64,000 nucleotides of DNA, from positions 326,855-390,854 of the forward strand of contig NZ_LMKN01000008.1 in assembly GCF_001421535.1 (NCBI RefSeq), given 5' to 3'. Every line of letters starts with the position of its first letter. The stretch's first letter is position 1. The notes beneath the pieces were generated by a model. That model had not been told where the DNA came from and made no database searches. It saw nothing but the letters and a program-made list of their open reading frames with translations. The translations under genes were made by a program, and so were the position numbers. Positions 3,366 through 19,524 of this stretch are shown one piece after another. The stretch is from Sphingomonas sp. Leaf20. GTDB taxonomy: Bacteria; Pseudomonadota; Alphaproteobacteria; Sphingomonadales; Sphingomonadaceae.

Positions 3366-6300
3366 ATGCGTTCGAATCGCAACCGGGCAGTTCTGGCGGG
3401 TTCCTCGCTGGTCGTCATCGGCATCGCGCTGGCCGCGCCGCCGGTGCTGGCGCAGGACACCACGATCGCGACTTCGGTCACCACCGGGACCATATGGAGC
3501 GGGGCGACCTCCCCCGGCAGCAACTTCACGATTACGGCAACCGGTACGATCAGCACGCCCGATCCGAACGCGATCACGATCACCGGCGGGCCTGGCGCGA
3601 CGCTGGGCACGCTGTCGAACAGCGGCCGGGTCAACGATACGGCACCGACTGGCACGGCGATCTTTGTCGGCGCAACCGGCACGGACACGATCAGCGTCGC
3701 CGAGCTTGCCAATATGGCCACCGGGACGATCTCCGCGGTCGCGACGGGTATCCTCATCAATGCGCTTGGTACGATCGGTGCGCTAACCAACGCCGGGCGG
3801 ATCAGCGGACGCACGGCCGTCACCAGCGTAGGATCGATCGGATCGCTCAGCAACACCGGGGTGATTGCGGGCACGACCCGCGGTATTCAGAATGCCGTCG
3901 GGGGCATAATCGGCACCGTTGATAATTCGGGTACGATCACCGTGGCCGCGGGGGCCGCCGGGGCTGCGGGCGGCATCGCCAACAATGGCGGCTCGATCCT
4001 GACGCTGCTCAACACCGGCACGATCGTCAGCAGTTCCAGCAGCGGCATCGGCAACAACAAGACCAGCGCCTCGATCGGCCAGATCACCAATAGCGGCCTG
4101 ATCAGCGGTGCAACCGGCGGGCTGTGGAACTCGGGGACGATGTCCCAGGTCACCAATACCGGCCGGATCATCGGCGCCCAGGCCGGCGTCTTTCATGCCA
4201 GTGGCACGATCGCCACGATCAACAACAGCGGGACGATCAGCGGCGGCGGCTACGGTATTTCGATCGGGAGCGGCGCGTTCAATTCGCTGATCAACAGCGG
4301 AACGCTGAGCGGCGCAATCGCGCTGTATCTCGGATCGGGCGTGTCCGTGCCCACCATCACCAACAGCGGCGTGATCGCCGGCAACATCAACAATCTGAGC
4401 GCCAACGTGCTGACGATCACCGGCGGTACCGGCGCCACGTTCGGCACCCTGACCGGCAGCACGCTGACGAACAAGGGCAGCATCACCAGCACGCTGGCGA
4501 ACCTGGTGTTCACGACGGGCAACCTGGTGCTGAACGACAACATCAATGCGACGGGGCGCACGGTCAGCAACACCGGTGCGACCCTGTTGCTCAACAGCGG
4601 CATCAACGTTGCCGGCGCCTATACGCAGACCGCAGGCACACTCGACGTGAACCCGCTGGGCGGCCTGATCGCCACCGGCGTGGCGACCGCGAGCGGCGGC
4701 ACGATCCAGTCGAACTTCGTCAGCACGGGCAATTATCTGGCGGGCACCTACACGCTGCTCGGTGGGTCCAGCCTGAACATCTTCGGTGCGACGGTCGATG
4801 TGGGCACACTCGCCAACCTGGACCGATCGACCAACGCGACCGGCACGGCGCTGCAGTTGCTGATCAACAATAGCTATGTCGGCGGCACGTTGACGTCCGT
4901 TAGCAATGCTGCGGCGCTGACCAGCAGCAATACCGGGCTGTATGTCGCGACGACGGGCAGCATCGGCACCTTCTCCAACACCGGCACGCTGGGCGGCGCG
5001 CAGTTCGGCGTGAACAACCGCGGCATGATCGGCCTGCTGACCAATTCGGGCCGCATCACCAACAACAGCTTCACCGCGCTGTGGAACCAGGGCAGCATCG
5101 GCCAGCTGGTCAACACCGGCACGATCACCAACAGCAGCTGGGCGATCCTGAACAGCGGCACGCTGGGCACGGTGACCAACAGCGGCGTGATCGCCGGTGG
5201 ATCTTCGAATGGGAACGCCATTCAGAACGACGGCCTCATCCAATTGGTCGACAATAGCGGCACGATGTCGGGCGCCGGCAACGCGCTCGCCGGCAATTTT
5301 GGCACGATCCGAAACGGTGGCGTGATTCTCGGCGATATCAGCGGGGATAGCGGCGGTGTTATCGGCACGATCATCGGCGGAACGGGCGGCACCATCGGTA
5401 CCTTCACGGGCTATACCGGCGGCACGCAGGGTACGATCGGCCTGAACGGGAACCTCATCTTCGCCTCGGGCGCGCTGCTGCTCAACAACTCGATCGTCGC
5501 AAAGAGCATTACGGCCAGCGCGCTGATCGTCAGCAACACGGGCGCCGACATCACGCTGTCGACGATCGTCAACGTCGACGGGAATTTCAGCCAGAGCGCG
5601 GGCTCGCTGAATCTGGGCACTGCAGGCAAGCTGGTGGTCACCCAAGCGGCGAGCATCACCGGTGGCACGATCAGCGCGGGCGCCAACGGCTTTTCCCCCA
5701 ACGCCACCTATCTGAAAGGGGCGACCGGCGGCACGCTGGTGAGCGGTGGGGTCGGCTCGAGCTATACGGGCGTCGGCATCGCGACGAGCGGCGGCTTCAC
5801 CGGCCTGGCCTTCGGCAGTACGACCAGCGGCAACAACCTGCTGCTCACCGCCAACAACATCTATGTCGGCGACGCGCAGGTCTCGATCGACAATACCGGC
5901 TCGATCAGCGGCGAGACCTATCCGTTCTACGTCGCGAACACCGGTGCGATCGGCACCTTCACCAACAGCGGAACGCTGATGGGTCTGGCCGACGGGGTCA
6001 ACAACAACGGCAGCATCGGCAGCCTGTCGAACAGCGGCCTCATCAGCGGCGGGCAGAAGGGGCTGGGTAATCAGTCGACGATCACCAATCTGGTCAACAC
6101 CGCGACCGGCACGATCCTGGGCGGTACTGCGGCGGGTCTGCAGAATGATACGTCGATGGGGACGGTGACCAACGCCGGCCTCATCTCGTCGGGTTCGGTG
6201 GGTTTCGCGAATTACGGCGTGCTGGGTTTGCTGAGCAATACGGGCACCATCGGCGGCGGGCCGCAGGGGGTCTATCTTGGGGGCACCACGGGCACGCTGA

Positions 6301-9300
6301 ACAACAGCGGCACGATTATCGCGGGCCCGACCAGCCTGCTGATCGGCGGAACGCTCGGCGTGATGATCAACACCGGCCTGATCAGCGCGTTCAACGCGGT
6401 GAACGTCGCAGGAGTGCTGACTACGCTCGTCAACGCCAATGGCGGCACGATCACCGGCAACAACGCAGTATACGTCTCCAGCAATCTGGGCGGTCTCTCG
6501 AACAGCGGCCTGATCCAGGGCAGGATCGAAAACCAGACCGCCAACCTCCTGACGATCACCGGCGGTGCGGCGGGCACGATCGGCACGCTGACTGGTACGT
6601 CGGGCATCGGTACGATCAACAATACGCTGAGCAATGTGGTGTTCGCGTCGGGCAACCTGCTGCTCAACGACCGGATCATCGCGACCGGACGCACCGTCAG
6701 CAACACCGGCGCCAGCCTGTCGCTGACCAGCAACATCAGCATCACCGGGAATTACAGCCAGTCGGCGGGCACGCTGAGCCTGACCCCAGGCACCAGCAGC
6801 CTGATCGTCAGCGGGGCGGCCAACCTGAGCGGCGGCACCGTCCTGGCGAGCCTGTCCAGCACGGGGAATTACCTGGCGAGCAGCTATACGCTGGTCTCCG
6901 GCGGCGCGAGCTCGTCGCTTTCCGGCGCTACCGTTTCGACCGGGACCGTCACCGGGCTGGCGAGTTCGTCGAGCATCAGCGGGAACACCCTGCTCCTGGC
7001 GATTGCCAACGACTATGTCGGCGGATCGCTCACCACGCTGGCCAACGCGGCATCGCTCACCAGCGCCGCCACCGGCCTTTACGTGGCAACGACCGGCACT
7101 ATCGGCACGGTGTCCAACACCGGCACGCTGGGCGGCGCGCAATTCGGCGTCAACAACCGCGGCACGATCGGCACGTTCGGCAACTCCGGTCGCATCACCA
7201 ACGCCAATTTCACCGCGCTGTGGAACCAAGGCAGCATCGGCCAGCTGGTCAACAGCGGCACGATCACCAACAGCAGCTGGGCGATCCTGAACAGCGGCAC
7301 GATCGGCACCGTGACCAACAGCGGCGTGATTACCGGCGCCGGGGTCGCGATCCAGAACAACGCCGTGATCGCCGTCGTCGACAACAGCGGCACGCTGTCG
7401 GGCCAGAACGCGCTTGCCGGCACGTTCGGCACGGTCATCAACAGCGGCCTGATCCGCGGCAATATCAACCCATCCGGCGGCGTGATCGGCACCATCATCG
7501 GTGGCAGCGGCGGCGCGATCGGTACGTTTACCGGCTCCACCGGGACGACCCAGGGCACGATCGGCGCCAGCGGCAACCTCACCTTCGCCGCGGGTGCGCT
7601 GCTGCTCAACGATACGATCAAAGCCGTCAACATCGCTGCCAGCGCGCTGACCGTCAGCAACACCGGCGCCGACATCACGCTGGCGACGATCGTCAACGTC
7701 GACGGCAATTTCAGCCAGAGCGCTGGCTCGCTCGATTTGGGCACCACCGGCCGGCTGGTCGTTACCCAGGCGGCGAACTTCACCGGCGGCACGATTGCTG
7801 CGGGCGGCTTCTCCGCCACGGGCAATTATCTCGCCGGCAGCAATGCCGGAACGCTCGTGTCCGGCGGCGTGGGCTCGAACTATGCCGGTGTCAGCATCAG
7901 CATGGGCGGGGCGACGGGCCTGGCGGCCGGCCCGGTCACCAGCGGCACCAACCTCGTGGTGGCCGTCGCCAATGATTATGTCGGCGGCACGCTCGGCTCG
8001 ATCAACAATAGCGGCAGCATCGGCGGGGTCGCGCAGGCGGTCTATGTCGCGGCGACGGGCAATCTGGGGACGCTCGACAACAGCGGCACGCTGTCGGGCA
8101 CCAGCAACGGCGTGTACAATGTCGGATTGGTCGGGTTGTTGCGCAACGCCGGCCTGATCGAGGGCGGCAATCCGGGCCTGTACAATGCGAACACCGGCGG
8201 CATCACCGCGCTGGTCAACACCGGCACGATCAAGACGACCAACGACGCATTCGGCACCGGACTGCAGAATGCCGGCAGCATCGGGACACTGACGAACAGC
8301 GGGCTGATCGGCAATAATATCGGCATCTTCAACGCCGGCGGCACGATCGCCTCGCTGGACAATCAGGGCACGATTGCGGGCGCGACCGCGCTGTTCATGA
8401 CCGGCAATGTCGGTGCGCTCAGCAACAGCGGGACGATCACCAACACCGGACATGGCATCTACATCACCGGCGCGACGCTCGGCACGTTGGTCAATTCCGG
8501 AACGCTCAGCGGCGATGCGGGCGCGATCTATATCGCGGCCAGTGGCAGCCTGGGCGGCATCGCGAACAGCGGCGTCATCCGGGGCGACATCGTCAACAAC
8601 TCGGCGCAGAATCTGACGATCACGGGCGGCAGCGGCACGACCATCGGCACGTTGAGCGGCGTTTCCGGCCAGGGCGTCATCAGCAACACCGCGAGCGACC
8701 TGGTGTTCGGCGGCGGCTTGCTGGTACTGGACAGTTCGATCGATGTGACGGGGCATGGCGTCGTCAACAGCGGCGCGATGCTGGGGTTGTTCGGCACCAC
8801 CAGCATTACCGGCAACTATACCCAGTCCGCGGGTGCGCTGGTGCTGAACCCGGGCTTGGGCAGCATGGTGGTCAGCGGCATCGCCAACGTCAGCGGCGGC
8901 GGCGTCCTCACGGCGGTGTCCGGCACCGGCAACTATCTGGCGGGCGATTCCTTCACGCTGATCCAGGGCGGGGCGGGATCGTCCTACAGTGGCGCCATCG
9001 TCAGCGGCGGAAGCGTTACCGGGCTGGATGCGGTCGGATCGGTTGCCACCATCGGCGGCAACACCAACCTGCTGCTATCGGTGAACAACGATTATGTCGG
9101 CGGCACGCTCGGCTCGATCGTCAACAGCGGAACGTTGAGCGCCGCCACGGCGGTGTATGTTGCCAGCACTGGCACGCTGGGCACGCTGGTCAACACCGGC
9201 ACCGTGATGGGCGATGTGGTCAACCAGTCCGCGGGCAACCTGACGATCGTCGGCGGCAGCGCCAGCAACGGCGTGTTCACCGGGCAGAGCGGCGCGCAGG

Positions 9301-12300
9301 GCATGATTTCGAGCGCGAATGGCGATGTCGTCCTGGCATCTGGCAGGATCCTGCTTGACGATAGCGTCGCGGTCTCCGGGCACGCGCTGGTCAACACCGG
9401 TGCATCGGTGCAGCTGGACCGCGCGGTCGACGTCACCGGCAATTTCAGCCAGTCCGGCGGTACGCTGGGCGTGGTCGCCAGCGGCGGCCTGATCGTCAGC
9501 GGTACGGCCAATCTCACGGGCGGGATGATTGCCGTCAGCGGGCTTTCGGCGACGGGCAATTATCTTGCGGGCGATACGGCTGGCACCATCATCCAGGGCG
9601 GCGTGGGATCGGCCTATACGGGGCTGGCCTATACCGCCAATGTCGGCGGGCTGGAGATTGCAGGCGCGACGCAGGGCACCAACCTGCTGGCGAGCGTGAC
9701 CAATGACTATGTCGGTGGTTCGCTGGGCACGCTGAGCAACACCAGCAGCCTGGGCGGAAACACGGCCATCTACGTCGCCAGCACCGGATCGATCGGTGCG
9801 CTCCTCAACAGCGCCATGATCACTGCGAATGTCGGTCTGGCCAACCAGGGCATGATCGGCGGGATCGCCAATAGCGGCGTGTTCGACGTCGGCGGCACCG
9901 CGGTCGTCAACACTGGCAGCATTGGCCAACTCGACAACACCGGCAGCATTGTCGCCGCAGCATCGGCGGGCATCTACAACGGCGGCACGATCGCCGCGAT
10001 CAACAACAGCGGCGTGCTGATCAACAGCCAGGTCTCGGCCGGATCGGGGCAGGTCGGCGCGATCGTCAACGTCGCAGCGCTGGGTGCGCTCACCAACAGC
10101 GGTACCATCGCCGGCCCGGTCGCGCTGTTCAATTCGGGATCGCTCGGCACGATCGCCAACACCGGCACGATCGCCGGCAATATCGAAAATGTGGCGGCAC
10201 AGGATCTCGTGTTCACCGGCGGCACCGGTGGAACGTTCGGCACGCTGACCGGCCATGGCGCCGGCAGCCAGGGCATGATCACCAATCTCGTCGGCAATGT
10301 CGTGATGGGGTCGGGCGGCATCGTGCTGAACGACGCGGTGAATGTCGGCACGGGCACGCTGATCAATGCCGGCGCGACCCTCCAGTTGACCAGCATCGTC
10401 GCGGTGACGGGCAATTACGCCCAGGCATCGGGCACGCTGGCGCTGGGCCAGTCTTCGCTGCTGGTCAGCGGTATCGCCAACATCAGCGGCGGCCTGATCA
10501 CCACGACGCAGTTCGACGCGACCGGCAACTACATCGCCGGCAGCAATGGCGGCGCGCTGGTGCAGGGCGGCGCGGGCTCCAGCTATCTGGGCGTCGGCGT
10601 GGCGTCGGGGATCAACGGCCTGTCGATCGCGACGAGCGTCGGTACGATCGGTAGCACCGTCAACCTGCTGCTGACGTTGCAGAACGACTATGTCGGCGGC
10701 ACACTCGCCAATCTCGACAACGCCGGTGCAATTTCGGGCGTATCGACCGCGATCGTTGTCGCGACATCGGGCAACATCGGCACGCTGTCGAACAGCGGCG
10801 TGCTTGCCGGCACCAGCTTCGGGCTCAACAATAGCGGCGCCATCGGGGTGATCGCGAACAGCGGGACGATGAGCGGCACCGTCGGTGTGTTCAACGGCGG
10901 TACGATCGGCACGATCCTGAACACCGGCAGCATGATCGACACGCCGGCCATCCTGGCCGCGGGGCTGAACAATGCCGGCGTGATCGGCGCGGTCATCAAT
11001 CAGGGGACGATCAGCGGCGAAGCGCGCGGCCTGTACAATGACGGCTGGATCGACAGTGTTACGAACAGCGGCACGATCGCCGGCCAACTCGCGCTCTACA
11101 ATGGCGGCAGCATCGGCACGTTGAACAATAGCGGTATCCTGCTCGACTCGGCGGCACCTGACAGCGCCGCGCTGAACAACGCGGGTACGCTGAATGTCGC
11201 CATCAACAGCGGAACGATTACCGGTGCCACCTATGGCATCCTGAACAGCGGGACGCTGGGGCAACTGGGCAATAGCGGCACGATCCAGGCGGTAACGGCG
11301 ATCTACAATGCCGGCATGCTAGGGCCGATCGCCAATAGCGGCGTGATTGCGGGCGACATCCAGAACGTGTCGGCGCAGGATCTGACCTTCACCGGTGCCA
11401 GCGGTACCGACATGGGCACGCTGACCGGGCAGGGCAGAGCACGCGGGACGATCAGCAACACCGGCGGCAACGTGGTGTTCGCCTCGGGCAATTTGCTGCT
11501 CAACGACGATGTCGCGGCGACCGGCGTGGCGAACAGCGGCGCGGTGCTGACGCTGGAGAACAGCGCGGCGATCACCGGCGACTATAGCCAGACGGCGGGC
11601 GCGCTGATGCTGGCGACCGGCCAGCAACTCAATGTCAGCGGCGTAGCCAGCATGACCGGCGGTAGCGTGGCGACCAGCTTGCCGAACGCTGCGAATTATC
11701 TGGCAGGCACAACGGCGGCCACGCTGGTCACCGGCGGCACCGGCTCGACCTATGCCGGCGTGTCGGTGACCACCGGCCCGATCACCGGGCTGGCGCTCAC
11801 GGCGGGCACAAGCGGCAACGCCCTCGTGGTGACGGCCGACAACAATTATATCGGCGCGAGCCTCGCCAACCTGACCAACAGCGGCAGCCTGACGGCGGAC
11901 TATCCGGTCTATGTGGCCGCAGGCGGCAGCCTGGGGGCACTCGCCAATAGCGGTACGCTGAGCGGATCGGTGGCGGCGATCTACAATGAGGGCATGCTCG
12001 GGCCGATCGCCAACACGGGCGTGATTGCGGGCAACATCCAGAACGTGTCGGCGCAGGATCTGACCTTCACCGGTGCCAGCGGCACCGACATGGGCACGCT
12101 GACCGGCCAGGGCACAGGGCGCGGGACGATCAGCAACACGGGCGGCAACGTGGTGTTCGCTGCGGGCAATTTGCTGCTCGACGACGATGTCGTGGCGACC
12201 GGCGTGGCGAACAGCGGCGCGGTGCTGACGCTGCAGAACAGCGCGGCGATCACCGGGAACTTCAGCCAGACGGCAGGCGCGTTGATGCTGGCCACCGGCC

Positions 12301-15300
12301 AGCAACTTAATGTCAGCGGCACCGCCAGCCTGACCGGCGGCAGCGTGGCGACGACGCTGCCGAACGCGGCCAACTACCTCGCGGGTATGACGGCGGCGAC
12401 GCTGGTCACCAGCGGCAGCGGCTCCACCTATACCGGCGTGTCGGTGACCACCGGCCCGATCACCGGGCTGGCGCTCACGGCGGGTGCAAGCGGCAACGAC
12501 CTCGTGGTGACGGCCGACAACAATTATATCGGCGCGAGCCTCGCCAGCCTGGCCAACATCGGCAGCCTGACGGCGGACAATCCGGTCTATGTGGCAGCAG
12601 GCGGCAGCCTTGGCAGTTTGACCAACTCGGGCACGCTGAGCGGATTGGTGGCGGCGATCTACAATGCCGGCACGCTGGGGCCGATCGCCAACACGGGCGT
12701 GATTGCCGGCAATATCGAGAATGTGGGCGCACAGGCGCTGACCTTCACTGGTGCCAGCGGCACCGACATGGGCACGCTGACCGGCCAGAATGGCGGACGC
12801 GGCACGATCACCAACCTTGCGGGGAACGTGGTGTTCGCGTCGGGCAATCTGCTGCTCGACGACGATGTCGTGGCAACCGGCCATGCGGTGACCAACAGCG
12901 GTGCGGTACTGACGCTGCAGAACAGTGCGGCGATCACCGGCGACTTTGGCCAGACGGCTGGCTCGCTGGTGCTGGCTACCGGCCAGCAGCTCAATGTCAG
13001 CGGCGTAGCCAGCCTGACGGGGGGTAGCGTGGCGACCACTTTGCCGAACGCGGCCAATTATCTTGCTGGCAACACGGCGGCGACGCTGGTCACCGGCGGC
13101 GCCGGCTCCACTTATGCCGGCGTGTCGGTGACCACCGGCCCGATCACCGGGCTGGCGCTCACGGCGGGCGGGAGCGGCAACGACCTCGTGGTGACGGCCG
13201 ACAACAATTATATCGGCGCTACTCTCGCCGGCCTGACCAACAGCGGCAGCCTGGCGGCGGACTATCCGGTCTATGTCGCGGCAAGCGGCAGTCTCGGCAG
13301 CCTGGCCAATAGCGGCACGCTGAGCGGCGCGGCCGCGGCGATCTACAATGCGGGCATGCTGGGGCCGATCGCCAATAGCGGCGTTATTGCGGGCAACATC
13401 CAGAACGTGGCGGCGCAGGCGCTGACGATCTCCGACGGCAGCGGCGGCAGCATCGGCACGCTGACCGGGCTGAATGGCGGGCGCGGGACGATCACCAATT
13501 CCGGCGGGGGCGTGGTATTCGCCGGGGGCAATTTGCTGCTGGGCGACGATGTCGTGGCAAGCGCTGTGGCGAACAGCGGCGCGGTGCTGAGCCTGGCGAC
13601 GAGTTCGAGCATCACCGGTGCCTTCAGCCAGACGGCGGGCGGGCTGGTGCTGGCGAGCGGGGCGCAGCTCAACGTCAGCGGCGCGGCGACGCTGAGCGGC
13701 GGCACCGTGTCGACGACGCTGCCGGGCGCAGCCAATTATCTCGCCGGCACCACGGCGGCGACATTGGTCGCCGGCGGCGCGGGATCGGCCTATACGGGTG
13801 TCTCGGTCGCCACCGGGGCAATTTCGGGGCTGGCGCTGACGTCGGGCACCAGCGGTACCAATCTGGTCGTCACCGCCAACAACAATTATGTCGGCGCGGG
13901 CCTGACGAGCCTGACCAACAGCGGCAGCCTGGTGGCGGACCATCCGGTCTATGTTGCCGCGGGGGGCAGTCTCGACAGCCTGACCAACACCGGCACGCTG
14001 AGCGGGGCTATCGCCGCGATCTACAATGCGGGCACGCTGGGGCCGATCGGCAATAGCGGCGTGATCGCAGGGAATATTCAGAACCTCGCGAGCACGGACC
14101 TGCGTATCGCGGGCGGCAGCGGCACGAGCTTCGGCACGCTGACCGGCTTCGCTGCGGGCAGCCAGGGGACGATCACCAATCTGGCGAGCAATCTGGTGCT
14201 CAGCGGCAACCTCCTGCTCAACGACGCGATCAACCTCGGCACGCGCGGCCTCGTCAGCAGCGCGACGCTGCAGCTGAACAATGCGGTGCGGCTGACGGGC
14301 AATTACAGCCAGGTCGGCGGCGCGCTCCTGATCGGCGTCACGTCGACCAGCGTCTACGGCCAGCTTCAGGTGAGCGGATCGGCAAGCCTCACCAACACGA
14401 ACGTGCGGCTCGTCGCACTGGGCAGCACTACGCTGGCGGCCGGTACGCCCTATACGGTGGTGAAGGCCGGAGGTGCGCTGACCTATAGCGGGCTTACCTC
14501 ATCCATCGCCGGGTTCGACGGCAGCTTTTCGACAGCCACCGGCGGCGGTACGTCCGATCTGGTACTGACGGTGAAGAACAACGTGCCCGCGACGCAGTTC
14601 GCGCCAATCGGCGTCTCGGCTGGCGGACCCGGCGTCGGGACCGGTGCCGCGCTCGACGCGATTGTCGTGGCCGGAAACGGTGCGGACACCGGTGCCGCAC
14701 TCCCGGTCATCAACGACGTGCTGGTCCCGCTGGCCGCGTTGCCGGCCGCGGAGCAGGAGCGCGCGATCGTCCAGCTTTCGCCGACCCAGTTGACGCCGCA
14801 GGTCGTCGCGCTCGCGGTGTCGCCGGCGGTGAACGCGATCGTGCAGCATCAGGACGTCCTGGCGGCGAATGCGAGTGGCCGCGAGGAACGCGGTATGTCG
14901 GCGGGGTCTCAGGGCCAGCGCGGCAATGTCTGGGGGCAGCTGCTGTTCAATACCGCCAGGCGCGGCGTGGCGGCCGGCTCGTCGCCCTATGCGGCGGACA
15001 GCTTCGGGATCATCGCCGGTGTCGACCTGATTGGCAGCAGCACGCTGCTCGTCGGCGGCGCGGTGAGCTGGGTGAACAGCACCGCCAATGGCCGCGCCGA
15101 CCTGACCGGGAGCCGGACCCGGCTCGACAGCTATCAGGCGACCACCTATTTCACGTGGCAGCCGGGCGATCTGGAAAATGGCGGCTTCGCGGTCGATGGC
15201 CAGCTTGGCTTTGGCTATAATGCGTATCGCCAGCAGCGGCGGATCGATTTTCTCGGCCGGACTGCCAGGGCGTCCTATGACGGGCAGCAATATCTCGGCA

Positions 15301-15758
15301 GCCTCCGCGTGAGCGACACGGTGCCGCTAGGGAATAGCGCGTCGCTCACGCCCTATGCCGGGCTGCGCGCGATCCATCTGCGGAATGACGGCTATACCGA
15401 ACGCCAGGCGGGCACCGCGAACATGCAGGTCCGCCGGCTCTCGGTCGATTCGCTCAACCACGAGATCGGGGTGCAGGGCGGGGCGATCTACGACACCGCC
15501 TCGGGCCGATTCGCGCCATCGGTGAAGCTCGGGTGGATCCACAATTACGTGAATGGCCCGATTCCGCTGACCGCCATATTGGGTGGGGTGACCTTCACCA
15601 GCACGTCGACGCGGGGTCCGAGGGACGGTGCGGTTCTCGGCGCGGGCCTGACGTTCAGCCGCAGCGATCGGCTGCGCATCGGGGTGCAATATGACGGCGA
15701 GATCCGCGACGCGTTCCAGAGCCATAGTGGCACGGTCAAGCTGACGGTAAACTTCTGA
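3366..15758 (+). CDS. Giant autotransporter adhesin (type V secretion)
   Basis: A 4130-residue surface protein. Residues 1-29 are a signal peptide with a basic start, a hydrophobic core and a cleavage site at VLAQ-DTT. The passenger (about 30-3730) consists of short repeats of the form GTIGTLTNSGTI with frequent NNSG and TNTG turns, as in right-handed beta-helix adhesins. Larger modules recur, each with GNYSQSAG, a VSG strand, GNYLAG and NDYVGG boxes. I saw no cysteine, as expected for an exported passenger. A linker (about 3735-3850) leads to a 12-strand-type autotransporter beta-barrel (PF03797-like, about 3850-4130) ending in VNF, the terminal Phe preferred by the BAM machinery. No protease triad or other enzyme motif was seen, so adhesion, autoaggregation or biofilm formation is the likely job. 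Upstream genes may encode modifying enzymes. Internal repeats make length variation by recombination likely. Confidence 0.93.
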   Translation: MRSNRNRAVLAGSSLVVIGIALAAPPVLAQDTTIATSVTTGTIWSGATSPGSNFTITATGTISTPDPNAITITGGPGATLGTLSNSGRVNDTAPTGTAIFVGATGTDTISVAELANMATGTISAVATGILINALGTIGALTNAGRISGRTAVTSVGSIGSLSNTGVIAGTTRGIQNAVGGIIGTVDNSGTITVAAGAAGAAGGIANNGGSILTLLNTGTIVSSSSSGIGNNKTSASIGQITNSGLISGATGGLWNSGTMSQVTNTGRIIGAQAGVFHASGTIATINNSGTISGGGYGISIGSGAFNSLINSGTLSGAIALYLGSGVSVPTITNSGVIAGNINNLSANVLTITGGTGATFGTLTGSTLTNKGSITSTLANLVFTTGNLVLNDNINATGRTVSNTGATLLLNSGINVAGAYTQTAGTLDVNPLGGLIATGVATASGGTIQSNFVSTGNYLAGTYTLLGGSSLNIFGATVDVGTLANLDRSTNATGTALQLLINNSYVGGTLTSVSNAAALTSSNTGLYVATTGSIGTFSNTGTLGGAQFGVNNRGMIGLLTNSGRITNNSFTALWNQGSIGQLVNTGTITNSSWAILNSGTLGTVTNSGVIAGGSSNGNAIQNDGLIQLVDNSGTMSGAGNALAGNFGTIRNGGVILGDISGDSGGVIGTIIGGTGGTIGTFTGYTGGTQGTIGLNGNLIFASGALLLNNSIVAKSITASALIVSNTGADITLSTIVNVDGNFSQSAGSLNLGTAGKLVVTQAASITGGTISAGANGFSPNATYLKGATGGTLVSGGVGSSYTGVGIATSGGFTGLAFGSTTSGNNLLLTANNIYVGDAQVSIDNTGSISGETYPFYVANTGAIGTFTNSGTLMGLADGVNNNGSIGSLSNSGLISGGQKGLGNQSTITNLVNTATGTILGGTAAGLQNDTSMGTVTNAGLISSGSVGFANYGVLGLLSNTGTIGGGPQGVYLGGTTGTLNNSGTIIAGPTSLLIGGTLGVMINTGLISAFNAVNVAGVLTTLVNANGGTITGNNAVYVSSNLGGLSNSGLIQGRIENQTANLLTITGGAAGTIGTLTGTSGIGTINNTLSNVVFASGNLLLNDRIIATGRTVSNTGASLSLTSNISITGNYSQSAGTLSLTPGTSSLIVSGAANLSGGTVLASLSSTGNYLASSYTLVSGGASSSLSGATVSTGTVTGLASSSSISGNTLLLAIANDYVGGSLTTLANAASLTSAATGLYVATTGTIGTVSNTGTLGGAQFGVNNRGTIGTFGNSGRITNANFTALWNQGSIGQLVNSGTITNSSWAILNSGTIGTVTNSGVITGAGVAIQNNAVIAVVDNSGTLSGQNALAGTFGTVINSGLIRGNINPSGGVIGTIIGGSGGAIGTFTGSTGTTQGTIGASGNLTFAAGALLLNDTIKAVNIAASALTVSNTGADITLATIVNVDGNFSQSAGSLDLGTTGRLVVTQAANFTGGTIAAGGFSATGNYLAGSNAGTLVSGGVGSNYAGVSISMGGATGLAAGPVTSGTNLVVAVANDYVGGTLGSINNSGSIGGVAQAVYVAATGNLGTLDNSGTLSGTSNGVYNVGLVGLLRNAGLIEGGNPGLYNANTGGITALVNTGTIKTTNDAFGTGLQNAGSIGTLTNSGLIGNNIGIFNAGGTIASLDNQGTIAGATALFMTGNVGALSNSGTITNTGHGIYITGATLGTLVNSGTLSGDAGAIYIAASGSLGGIANSGVIRGDIVNNSAQNLTITGGSGTTIGTLSGVSGQGVISNTASDLVFGGGLLVLDSSIDVTGHGVVNSGAMLGLFGTTSITGNYTQSAGALVLNPGLGSMVVSGIANVSGGGVLTAVSGTGNYLAGDSFTLIQGGAGSSYSGAIVSGGSVTGLDAVGSVATIGGNTNLLLSVNNDYVGGTLGSIVNSGTLSAATAVYVASTGTLGTLVNTGTVMGDVVNQSAGNLTIVGGSASNGVFTGQSGAQGMISSANGDVVLASGRILLDDSVAVSGHALVNTGASVQLDRAVDVTGNFSQSGGTLGVVASGGLIVSGTANLTGGMIAVSGLSATGNYLAGDTAGTIIQGGVGSAYTGLAYTANVGGLEIAGATQGTNLLASVTNDYVGGSLGTLSNTSSLGGNTAIYVASTGSIGALLNSAMITANVGLANQGMIGGIANSGVFDVGGTAVVNTGSIGQLDNTGSIVAAASAGIYNGGTIAAINNSGVLINSQVSAGSGQVGAIVNVAALGALTNSGTIAGPVALFNSGSLGTIANTGTIAGNIENVAAQDLVFTGGTGGTFGTLTGHGAGSQGMITNLVGNVVMGSGGIVLNDAVNVGTGTLINAGATLQLTSIVAVTGNYAQASGTLALGQSSLLVSGIANISGGLITTTQFDATGNYIAGSNGGALVQGGAGSSYLGVGVASGINGLSIATSVGTIGSTVNLLLTLQNDYVGGTLANLDNAGAISGVSTAIVVATSGNIGTLSNSGVLAGTSFGLNNSGAIGVIANSGTMSGTVGVFNGGTIGTILNTGSMIDTPAILAAGLNNAGVIGAVINQGTISGEARGLYNDGWIDSVTNSGTIAGQLALYNGGSIGTLNNSGILLDSAAPDSAALNNAGTLNVAINSGTITGATYGILNSGTLGQLGNSGTIQAVTAIYNAGMLGPIANSGVIAGDIQNVSAQDLTFTGASGTDMGTLTGQGRARGTISNTGGNVVFASGNLLLNDDVAATGVANSGAVLTLENSAAITGDYSQTAGALMLATGQQLNVSGVASMTGGSVATSLPNAANYLAGTTAATLVTGGTGSTYAGVSVTTGPITGLALTAGTSGNALVVTADNNYIGASLANLTNSGSLTADYPVYVAAGGSLGALANSGTLSGSVAAIYNEGMLGPIANTGVIAGNIQNVSAQDLTFTGASGTDMGTLTGQGTGRGTISNTGGNVVFAAGNLLLDDDVVATGVANSGAVLTLQNSAAITGNFSQTAGALMLATGQQLNVSGTASLTGGSVATTLPNAANYLAGMTAATLVTSGSGSTYTGVSVTTGPITGLALTAGASGNDLVVTADNNYIGASLASLANIGSLTADNPVYVAAGGSLGSLTNSGTLSGLVAAIYNAGTLGPIANTGVIAGNIENVGAQALTFTGASGTDMGTLTGQNGGRGTITNLAGNVVFASGNLLLDDDVVATGHAVTNSGAVLTLQNSAAITGDFGQTAGSLVLATGQQLNVSGVASLTGGSVATTLPNAANYLAGNTAATLVTGGAGSTYAGVSVTTGPITGLALTAGGSGNDLVVTADNNYIGATLAGLTNSGSLAADYPVYVAASGSLGSLANSGTLSGAAAAIYNAGMLGPIANSGVIAGNIQNVAAQALTISDGSGGSIGTLTGLNGGRGTITNSGGGVVFAGGNLLLGDDVVASAVANSGAVLSLATSSSITGAFSQTAGGLVLASGAQLNVSGAATLSGGTVSTTLPGAANYLAGTTAATLVAGGAGSAYTGVSVATGAISGLALTSGTSGTNLVVTANNNYVGAGLTSLTNSGSLVADHPVYVAAGGSLDSLTNTGTLSGAIAAIYNAGTLGPIGNSGVIAGNIQNLASTDLRIAGGSGTSFGTLTGFAAGSQGTITNLASNLVLSGNLLLNDAINLGTRGLVSSATLQLNNAVRLTGNYSQVGGALLIGVTSTSVYGQLQVSGSASLTNTNVRLVALGSTTLAAGTPYTVVKAGGALTYSGLTSSIAGFDGSFSTATGGGTSDLVLTVKNNVPATQFAPIGVSAGGPGVGTGAALDAIVVAGNGADTGAALPVINDVLVPLAALPAAEQERAIVQLSPTQLTPQVVALAVSPAVNAIVQHQDVLAANASGREERGMSAGSQGQRGNVWGQLLFNTARRGVAAGSSPYAADSFGIIAGVDLIGSSTLLVGGAVSWVNSTANGRADLTGSRTRLDSYQATTYFTWQPGDLENGGFAVDGQLGFGYNAYRQQRRIDFLGRTARASYDGQQYLGSLRVSDTVPLGNSASLTPYAGLRAIHLRNDGYTERQAGTANMQVRRLSVDSLNHEIGVQGGAIYDTASGRFAPSVKLGWIHNYVNGPIPLTAILGGVTFTSTSTRGPRDGAVLGAGLTFSRSDRLRIGVQYDGEIRDAFQSHSGTVKLTVNF
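5005..7345 (+). repeat. Diverged duplicated module inside the autotransporter gene
   Basis: Segments at about 5005-5205 and 7153-7345 are very similar at DNA level: both encode the run NNRG-IG, SGRITN, FTALWNQGSIGQLVN, GTITNSSWAILNSGT. Further matching stretches lie at about 5455-5660 and 7570-7780. The module therefore repeats at about 2.1 kb, and divergence is greater than in the downstream 678-bp array. This points to an older duplication. Confidence 0.75.
11300..14100 (+). repeat. Tandem array of ~678-bp (226-residue) units in the autotransporter passenger
   Basis: The landmark GGCCGATC (after IYNAG-LG) occurs at 11323, 12001, 12679, 13363 and 14041, giving spacings of 678, 678, 684 and 678 bp, all multiples of three. 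Each unit encodes the same order of boxes: GPIANSGVIAGNI, FTGASGTDMGTLTGQ, NVVFASGNLLL, AITG-QTAG, QQLNVSG, NAANYLAG, ITGLALTAG and NNYIGASL. The first three units are nearly identical over long stretches; the fourth is more diverged and the fifth is partial. Near-identity implies recent expansion or ongoing gene conversion. Confidence 0.9.
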
Positions 15759-17496: not shown

Positions 17497-19524
17497 ATGC
17501 CAGACATTTCCACCGAGCATCTGACGATTCACTATGCCGACTATGGCGCGCCGACCGCGCAGCCCGTCCTGCTCATCCATGGGTGGCCCGACGATGCCTC
17601 GACATGGGACGAGGTCGCGCACGCGCTGGCCGATGCGGGGCTGCGCGTGATCGTGCCGACGCTGCGCGGGTTCGGCGCGACGCGGTTCGTCGGCGATGCC
17701 GCGCGTACCGGCAACAGCGCCATGCTGGCGATGGACATGATCGCGCTGATGGATGGCCTCGGCATCGACCGCTTCATGGTCGCGGGGCATGACTGGGGCT
17801 CGAATACCGCCGAAGCGATGGCGGTCGGCTGGCCCGAGCGGATCGAGCGCCTGGCGATGCTGTCCACGCCGCCACGGCTTGGCGGGATACCCACCCCGCC
17901 GTTCGAGCAGGCGCAGCGGCAATGGTATCACTGGTTCATGGCGACGAGGCGCGGCGCGCAGGCGGTCCGCGACGATCGCAAGGGCTTTGCGCATATTCAC
18001 TGGGTCAACTGGTCGCCGCCCGGCTGGTTCGACGAGGCGACGTTCGACCGTGTCGCGCGGGCGTTCGAGAACCCCGACTGGGCCGACGTCACGCTGCACA
18101 GCTATCGCGCGCGCTGGGACGAGGCCGACCCCGATCCGCAGAGCCAGTGGCTCGAGGACAAGGTGAAGGCGGCCCGGACGCTTTCTTTGCCGGCGCTCTA
18201 TATCCGGGGCGCGGTCGACGGCGTGAACCCGCCATCGGCCAGCCAGGACGTAGCCGGCAAGTTCGACGGCCCGTTCGCGGTCGTCACGCTCGCCGGCGTC
18301 GGCCACTTCCCGCAGCGCGAGAACCCGACCGCGGTCGCGCATCATCTCATCCAGCTTTTCACCGGCGATCCCGCCGACGTCACAGACCCCACAGACCGGA
18401 GCCGCATCATGCCCAGTTCGAAAACCCTCTTGGCCGGCATCGCCGCCGCCGGCATCGTCGCCGCATCGCTGATCGGTATCGCACAGGCGCAGGGTCCCGC
18501 CGCGCCCCTGACGCAGGTCGCGCAGTTCGATCACCAGGCGACCGGCGTCGCGGTGACGGCGGATGGCCGGCGTTTCGTCAACTTCCCGCGCTGGACCGAC
18601 GACGCGCCGATTTCGGTGGCCGAGGTGATGAAGGACGGCACGCTCAGGGCCTATCCGGACGAGAAGTGGAACAGCTGGCGCAACGCCAAGGCGAGCATGC
18701 TCCCGGTCGGCGATTATTTCGTCTGCGTGCAATCGATCGTACCCGACGGTCACGGCAATCTCTGGGTGCTCGACCCGGGCGCGCCCGGCAACGAGAAGAT
18801 CCTTGAAGGCGCGCCAAAGCTGGTGCGGATCGACCTCGCCACCAATCGCGTGACCAAGGTCATCAAGGTGCCGCTCGATGTCGCGCTCCAGGGCACCTAC
18901 CTCAACGACATCCGCTTTTCGCCAGACGGCAAGACCGGTTACATCACCGACAGCGGCACGCGCGGTGCGATCATCGTCATCGATCTCGAGACCGGCAAAG
19001 GCTTTCGTGCGCTCGACGGCCATCCCTCGACACAGATCGACAAGACGGTGACGGTCAGGACCGATGGCAAGCCGCTGGTCCGCCCCGATGGACGTCAACC
19101 CGCCTTCGCCTCGGATGGTATCGCGATCTCGAACGACGGGAAGACGCTGTATTACCAGGCGCTGACGGGCAAGACGCTCTATTCGATCGATACTGCGCTG
19201 TTGCGCGCGAACGTCAGCGAGGCGGATCGCGGTACCGGTGTGAGGACGGTGGCGCAGACTCACGTCGCCGACGGTCTGTGGATGAGCAAGGCGGGTATCC
19301 TCTATATCACCTCGCCCACGACCAACGGCATCTCACGTCTGGTCGGCAACCGCACCGAGCCGGTACTGACCGACCCGCGTCTGCGCTGGCCCGATACCTT
19401 CGCCGAGGGGCCCGATGGCCGGATGTACGTGACCGCAAGCCACATCCAGGACACCAACTGGTTCAAGCCCGGCGCGCCGGCATCGATCAAGACGCAGCTC
19501 TTCTCGTTTGCGCCGGTCCGGTAG
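17497..19524 (+). CDS. Epoxide-hydrolase-like alpha/beta hydrolase fused in frame to an MRJP/Yellow-like protein
   Basis: One 675-codon frame carrying two proteins. Residues 1-304 are an alpha/beta hydrolase of the epoxide hydrolase/dehalogenase branch: oxyanion motif HGWP at 28-31, nucleophile Asp99 in GHDWGS and catalytic His270 in GVGHFP. It has no signal peptide, so acts in the cytoplasm. Residue 305 is a Met that opens a classical signal peptide followed by an MRJP/Yellow beta-propeller. No stop separates them. A secretion signal buried in a 675-residue chain is unlikely to work, and a GGAG ribosome site precedes codon 305. I therefore think two genes have become joined by loss of the first stop codon, with the second still made from its own start. 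A real fusion cannot be excluded. An EcfG-like promoter precedes the frame. Confidence 0.8.
   Translation: MPDISTEHLTIHYADYGAPTAQPVLLIHGWPDDASTWDEVAHALADAGLRVIVPTLRGFGATRFVGDAARTGNSAMLAMDMIALMDGLGIDRFMVAGHDWGSNTAEAMAVGWPERIERLAMLSTPPRLGGIPTPPFEQAQRQWYHWFMATRRGAQAVRDDRKGFAHIHWVNWSPPGWFDEATFDRVARAFENPDWADVTLHSYRARWDEADPDPQSQWLEDKVKAARTLSLPALYIRGAVDGVNPPSASQDVAGKFDGPFAVVTLAGVGHFPQRENPTAVAHHLIQLFTGDPADVTDPTDRSRIMPSSKTLLAGIAAAGIVAASLIGIAQAQGPAAPLTQVAQFDHQATGVAVTADGRRFVNFPRWTDDAPISVAEVMKDGTLRAYPDEKWNSWRNAKASMLPVGDYFVCVQSIVPDGHGNLWVLDPGAPGNEKILEGAPKLVRIDLATNRVTKVIKVPLDVALQGTYLNDIRFSPDGKTGYITDSGTRGAIIVIDLETGKGFRALDGHPSTQIDKTVTVRTDGKPLVRPDGRQPAFASDGIAISNDGKTLYYQALTGKTLYSIDTALLRANVSEADRGTGVRTVAQTHVADGLWMSKAGILYITSPTTNGISRLVGNRTEPVLTDPRLRWPDTFAEGPDGRMYVTASHIQDTNWFKPGAPASIKTQLFSFAPVR
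18409..19524 (+). CDS. Secreted MRJP/Yellow-family beta-propeller protein (internal start)
   Basis: Internal start ATG at 18409, 7 nt after GGAG (18398-18401). The 371-residue product begins with a signal peptide (MPSSKTLLAGIAAAG, cleavage after AQAQ). The rest matches the major royal jelly protein/Yellow family, a six-bladed propeller, with blade motifs such as LNDIRFSPDGKTGYITDSG and FASDGIAISNDGKTLYY. Bacterial members are periplasmic and their activity is generally unknown; some relatives are lactonases or gluconolactonase-like. Family length agrees with this start and not with the 675-residue frame that contains it. Confidence 0.75.
   Translation: MPSSKTLLAGIAAAGIVAASLIGIAQAQGPAAPLTQVAQFDHQATGVAVTADGRRFVNFPRWTDDAPISVAEVMKDGTLRAYPDEKWNSWRNAKASMLPVGDYFVCVQSIVPDGHGNLWVLDPGAPGNEKILEGAPKLVRIDLATNRVTKVIKVPLDVALQGTYLNDIRFSPDGKTGYITDSGTRGAIIVIDLETGKGFRALDGHPSTQIDKTVTVRTDGKPLVRPDGRQPAFASDGIAISNDGKTLYYQALTGKTLYSIDTALLRANVSEADRGTGVRTVAQTHVADGLWMSKAGILYITSPTTNGISRLVGNRTEPVLTDPRLRWPDTFAEGPDGRMYVTASHIQDTNWFKPGAPASIKTQLFSFAPVR

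Follow-up and report, generated by a model that had tools for sequence, protein, structure and literature searches.

A precursor that holds two proteins and a cleaved internal signal peptide is known from Bradyrhizobium, where FbcH gives rise to cytochromes b and c1. The gene described here resembles FbcH in that a single precursor would contain two proteins and, between them, a signal peptide, but it differs in that no internal start is known to be invoked for FbcH and that the first FbcH protein is itself a membrane protein.

In-frame genes with two products are already known; here, the nested product is, in addition, predicted to be exported. Two-polypeptide phage endolysins can be encoded in single genes, and in some cases their products assemble (PMC9430671). 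These endolysins share with the present fusion a single frame, an internal in-frame start and a common stop codon, and they yield two products, as is proposed for the fusion; however, both of their products belong to one endolysin, whereas the fusion combines two unrelated folds and its nested product would begin with a signal peptide. Alternative in-frame starts also underlie the N-terminal proteoforms of Salmonella SsaQ, PagC and OmpX, where they can alter localisation (PMC11005335). In the passages on PagC and OmpX, it is the longer form that has the signal peptide, whereas in the fusion it would stand at the N-terminus of the shorter form only.

Each of the two domains has described relatives. 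Bacterial MRJP proteins, annotated as 'L-dopachrome tautomerase-related protein' and including the relative 2qe8, share the propeller family, but the annotated examples examined are encoded by a separate gene, whereas here MRJP lies behind a hydrolase. Among solved structures, the hydrolase domain is closest, in sequence as well as in fold, to 5bov, a putative epoxide hydrolase of Klebsiella, whose 304-residue chain has neither tail nor propeller. Among the matches listed for the open-licence literature (titles and abstract openings), we found neither a description of this hydrolase-MRJP gene nor one of a cytoplasmic enzyme followed, recurrently across a genus, by a nested product for export.

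The fused frame and its two domains

We analyzed a window of 64,000 nucleotides from Sphingomonas sp. Leaf20, for which an earlier note had reported a stop-free joining of an epoxide-hydrolase-like domain to an MRJP/Yellow domain. This description holds: the frame at 17497..19524 (plus strand, as are all features below) spans 675 residues plus the stop codon, is open throughout, and contains both Pfam domains above their cut-offs. Residues 1-288 (17497..18360) form the alpha/beta hydrolase domain, with Abhydrolase_1 (PF00561) matching residues 23-277 (2.5e-22) and 5bov as both the closest solved structure (E 6.4e-53) and the first-ranked fold match. The HGWP motif (residues 28-31), Asp99 and His270, which the note had singled out, are invariant across 26 aligned fusions, as is Asp241. 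We take H28-P31, D99, D241 and H270 to be the HGxP motif, the nucleophilic Asp, the acid and the catalytic His of the epoxide-hydrolase-like family, and by these motifs the domain is assigned to the epoxide-hydrolase-like alpha/beta hydrolases. No signal peptide was evident by eye at the hydrolase N-terminus.

An open linker (residues 289-304; 18361..18408) leads to an ATG at codon 305 (18409..18411), where a signal peptide and a GGAG ribosome site had been noted; a signal-peptide-like stretch and the GGAG are indeed present. The Shine-Dalgarno (SD) core GGAG occupies 18398..18401, 7 nt upstream of the ATG, with MPSSKTLLAGIAAAGIVAASLIGIAQA|Q following. Residues 305-331 (18409..18489) are predicted to constitute a Sec signal peptide with a signal peptidase I site between AQA and Q; under simple, permissive rules, a positive n-region, a hydrophobic core and an AXA-like site were found in 50 of 50 fusions. 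The remainder (18490..19521) is the MRJP/Yellow beta-propeller, the predicted mature periplasmic protein. PF03022 covers residues 411-614 (2.3e-22; 80.1 bits against a curated cut-off of 19.8), the closest solved relatives are 2qe8 (E 4.8e-26) and then MRJP1 5yyl (1.5e-7), and the propeller fold matches are 2qe8 and 7asd; by profile and fold, this domain is a member of the MRJP/Yellow family. A fold model predicted from a 26-row alignment had a mean pLDDT of 76.9, with values below 50 at residues 296-336, and is uninformative for the helix region.

Fused, broken, separate and solo forms

MRJP was searched in three overlapping genome sets, drawn from the genus (295 genomes, E-value limit 1e-60), the family (397 genomes, 1e-60) and the order (396 genomes, 1e-40), and was found in 80, 17 and 18 genomes, respectively. 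The genome scan kept 79 loci from the best 80 of 96 stretches. From the places found in the genus search, 30 were taken as loci and 20 with shorter frames were retrieved, some of them duplicates; the remainder, including all matches at 57% identity or less, was left out. After removal of identical MRJP sequences, 93 distinct MRJP loci were classified, with the window counted among the fused. Stop-free hydrolase-MRJP fusions made up 50 of the 93 and MRJP genes without a hydrolase 36; in four loci a broken hydrolase preceded an intact MRJP (L045, L046, L048 and L056), two held adjacent separate genes (L133 and L137), and one had a stop inside the signal peptide (L038). Loci from the order-level search postdate this count and are excluded from it: L156-L158 duplicate counted loci, and no hydrolase was found in the 1200 nt upstream of L159, L168 and L160-L167, the last eight at about 41% identity. 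The refuting outcome named in the earlier note, one fused length in all homologues, is seen only in part: 50 loci are fused, but solo, broken and separate forms exist beside them.

At the window's G+C, an open frame is by itself weak evidence, because 447 open codons precede the solo MRJP gene in L067 and 362 that in L146, in neither case with a detectable hydrolase. Judged by sequence comparison, the fusion is beyond chance, since both domains and the linker recur in a single frame at 50 distinct loci.

In the four broken loci, the hydrolase frame stops 172 to 234 codons in, upstream of a stop-free MRJP, and the SD core is kept in three, being lost in L056. The breaks in L048 and L056 are unlikely to be sequencing errors, because the former carries a second lesion and the latter a large deletion; those in L045 and L046 could be. 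In L057, another gene, ending in TGA, stands in the hydrolase's place, leaving about 20 linker codons, AGGA and the ATG; with this remnant included, the SD core is retained in four of five loci with a broken or lost hydrolase. For 29 of the 36 solo MRJP genes, at least one candidate start is preceded by an SD core, and many begin with a signal-peptide-like stretch behind it.

Several individual loci stand apart. L038, from a lichen metagenome assembly, is a fusion that is intact except for a TAG within its signal peptide, through error or recent loss. Two MRJP copies, L063 and L135, have a likely start without a signal peptide (MEDASPTLLSRAKEAIGL... and MDNASPTLLSQAKEAIGL..., respectively) and are possibly cytoplasmic. 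The fusion L023 comes from a record titled Microvirga sp. SRT01 and is nested among Sphingomonas sequences, suggesting a mislabelled, contaminated or transferred sequence.

The internal start site and the proposed products

Across the 50 distinct fusions, the internal start was ATG in 49 and GTG in one (L142, with GGAG), as determined by a search that tolerated displacements of at most 4 codons; this was needed for L044, whose ATG is displaced by a few codons from its column in the alignment. The SD core was present at this start in 48 of 50 fusions (absent in L016 and L044), compared with 26 of 565 other in-frame ATGs, and 2000 synonymous resamplings gave a mean of 6.5 and a maximum of 15 of 50, although these counts are non-independent trials, as the fusions share ancestry. 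A first set of 45 rows, L038 included, gave comparable figures (43/45 versus 25/500; synonymous null mean 6.3, maximum 17). At the hydrolase starts, the SD core was found in 33 of 50 fusions. Codon 301 turns the usual coding pattern around: its first base is variable (C26 A21 G2 T1), whereas 47 of 50 fusions have G as its third base, a degree of fixation at that position unmatched in the other 18 of 19 Arg columns. The SD nucleotides also outlast changes in the encoded residues (TGG AGC in L041, AGG ACG in L036 and AGG ATG in L042), and in L043 the SD is shifted (AGGAAGGA). From these patterns the internal start looks selected, and the fusions carry two sequence hallmarks of a nested gene, namely an in-frame internal start codon with a shared stop codon and a ribosome-binding site kept beyond coding needs.

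RNA at the internal start is weakly structured: in 50 of 50 fusions it ranks in the lowest quarter of windows by structure. After synonymous resampling, however, the mean fraction was 0.21, and no more than 11 of 50 fusions had a value of 0.05 or below, and the control Met148 was more extreme (0.15; 25/49). The weak structure is largely composition, and we dropped RNA openness as separate support.

Because the SD and start are kept beyond coding needs, and because MRJP is intact where the hydrolase is broken or lost, we favor, with a probability of roughly two-thirds, a single gene from which two products, one nested in frame within the other, are made: the propeller, located in the periplasm, and a long form that leaves the hydrolase anchored to the membrane. 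The constraint on the linker, the lack of an SD core in four hydrolase genes with no MRJP nearby and the TM-like tails of most hydrolase-only loci, all described below, also speak for this reading, whereas the missing SD cores of L016, L044 and L056 count against it. Initiation at 17497 would yield the 675-residue protein, comprising the cytoplasmic hydrolase, a hydrophobic helix and the MRJP propeller, which would insert N-in/C-out; signal peptidase may cut it behind AQA (residue 331), in which case the hydrolase would stay attached to the membrane by a stub. Separate initiation at the ATG at 18409, directed by GGAG at 18398-18401, would give a 371-residue preprotein, to be exported and cleaved to a periplasmic propeller identical to that from the long form. 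The earlier suggestion that two products are still made finds indirect support in the conserved internal SD and start and in the intact MRJP genes beside broken or lost hydrolases; the products themselves, their topology, cleavage and any catalytic role we infer from sequence. Two products and a buried signal peptide had been put forward as alternatives, but they need not exclude each other. If the two-product reading is true, one bacterial gene serves two compartments with no stop codon between its products, and a working start site and signal peptide are maintained inside a fused frame. A single bacterial family, with its fused, broken, separate and solo forms, would then offer a natural experiment on gene merger in which two products are kept.

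More tentatively, and at somewhat less than even odds, a single hydrophobic helix may do two jobs, as the signal peptide of the nested propeller and, when the long product is made, as the element that anchors the hydrolase before it in the membrane. Four hydrolase genes (L070, L074, L080 and L084) point this way: the linker and a hydrophobic C-terminal tail are retained in them, but CGC or CAC replaces the CGG or AGG of the fusions and GTG replaces ATG; the SD core is present in none of the four, and MRJP is absent in about 9 kb. As they form one clade, they count as a single event. Several of their genomes carry MRJP elsewhere, as with L061 and L070, both from Sphingomonas citricola. More broadly, a TM-like tail ends the hydrolase in 14 of 18 hydrolase-only loci, which suggests that a hydrolase of this kind is often at the membrane. 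It is as if fusion and fission had exchanged a ribosome-binding site, a signal peptide and a tail anchor for one another.

We then weighed other readings, the most durable of which, though unlikely, is that the internal product alone matters, the hydrolase being optional and decaying and the open linker inherited rather than selected. The 36 solo MRJP genes, the four broken hydrolases and the L057 remnant are in keeping with it, as is the weaker constraint on the hydrolase (pN/pS 0.29) than on MRJP (0.22); loss or breakage of the hydrolase in several lineages, which also counts against the favored reading, points to a long product that is not indispensable. Yet a pN/pS of 0.29 and invariant catalytic residues argue against a decaying hydrolase, and the linker speaks against passive inheritance. 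Whereas the 50 fusions were selected for openness, 44 scan loci (from the best 80 of 96 stretches) were defined by one tblastn match across both domains, a criterion independent of the open frame; L045, L046, L048 and L056 were excluded from this single-frame set and handled separately. Following up the proposal to look for a stop codon in homologues, we found none in the linker of these 44 loci, the sole in-frame stop being that of L038 in the signal peptide, against about 5 expected without constraint over the linker and SD codons (residues 287-304; 3.0 + 2.1, a rough estimate from fourfold sites). As few linker codons are near a stop, this openness is evidence of medium weight.

Less probable again is that only the 675-residue protein is made and is then cut by signal peptidase into a membrane hydrolase and a periplasmic propeller, the internal SD being idle. 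The continuous frame in 50 loci, the AXA-like site in 50 of 50 and the linker pN/pS of 0.46 (residues 287-301) would all suit such a precursor, but it leaves unexplained an SD kept beyond coding needs and an MRJP that stays intact despite an early hydrolase stop. An uncleaved bifunctional protein, with the hydrolase inside, the propeller outside and a fortuitous internal SD, is more doubtful still: N-in/C-out membrane proteins are ordinary in bacteria, but the SD and the AXA-like site are conserved, and many solo MRJPs have a signal-peptide-like start behind an SD core. Finally, a sequencing error, for which a check of the reads had been advised, or a stop lost recently in this genome alone is rejected, as 49 other distinct loci have the same open frame, including L110, whose MRJP DNA is identical to that on Sphingomonas taxi plasmid STP1. 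On that plasmid, the fusion is annotated as one CDS and named only 'alpha/beta fold hydrolase', illustrating how annotation can hide an exported protein.

Origin and genomic setting

A lost stop codon, which the earlier note had offered as an origin, is not borne out. Where hydrolase and MRJP are adjacent but separate, in L133 and L137, the two genes are in different frames (offsets 1 and 2), so that stop loss alone would not yield this fusion. In L133, the hydrolase stop overlaps a likely TTG start (TTGA), preceded at 7 nt by GGAG. Trees did not settle which arose first, the fused or the separate state; two of them left out 18 and 20 rows, mostly near relatives of retained rows, with L056 among the 18. 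On Rhizobium leguminosarum plasmid pR132503 (L170:2749-5133), MRJP is followed by an alpha/beta hydrolase; we rejected this pair as a model of the fusion's origin, as the neighbors are in reverse order, MRJP first.

With 15 of the 93 loci set aside for having less than 1200 nt downstream, 28 of 49 fused loci (for example L018, L026 and L055, directly after the MRJP stop), 5 of 24 solo loci and 3 of 5 others have a catalase-like match that begins at most 60 nt beyond MRJP. The gene is called 'catalase family protein' in the Sphingomonas taxi record, and no Pfam family match was found for its protein. Its proximity in 28 of 49 fused loci hints at an oxidative or epoxide-related pathway shared with the fusion. 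In L012, the fused frame runs about 100 codons beyond the usual MRJP end (after 6031) into the catalase-like gene, and the match to the latter is interrupted at about its residue 40, through a lost stop or a sequencing error.

In the window, the catalase-like gene is absent beside the fusion, its closest relative lying on another contig of the same genome. The fused gene appears to stand alone, since the opposite strand encodes both of its neighbors, one an SDR gene and the other a DUF1810 gene. Elsewhere in the window, a 4130-residue frame (3366-15758, +) with repeated glycine/serine/threonine-rich units has the appearance of a putative giant autotransporter.
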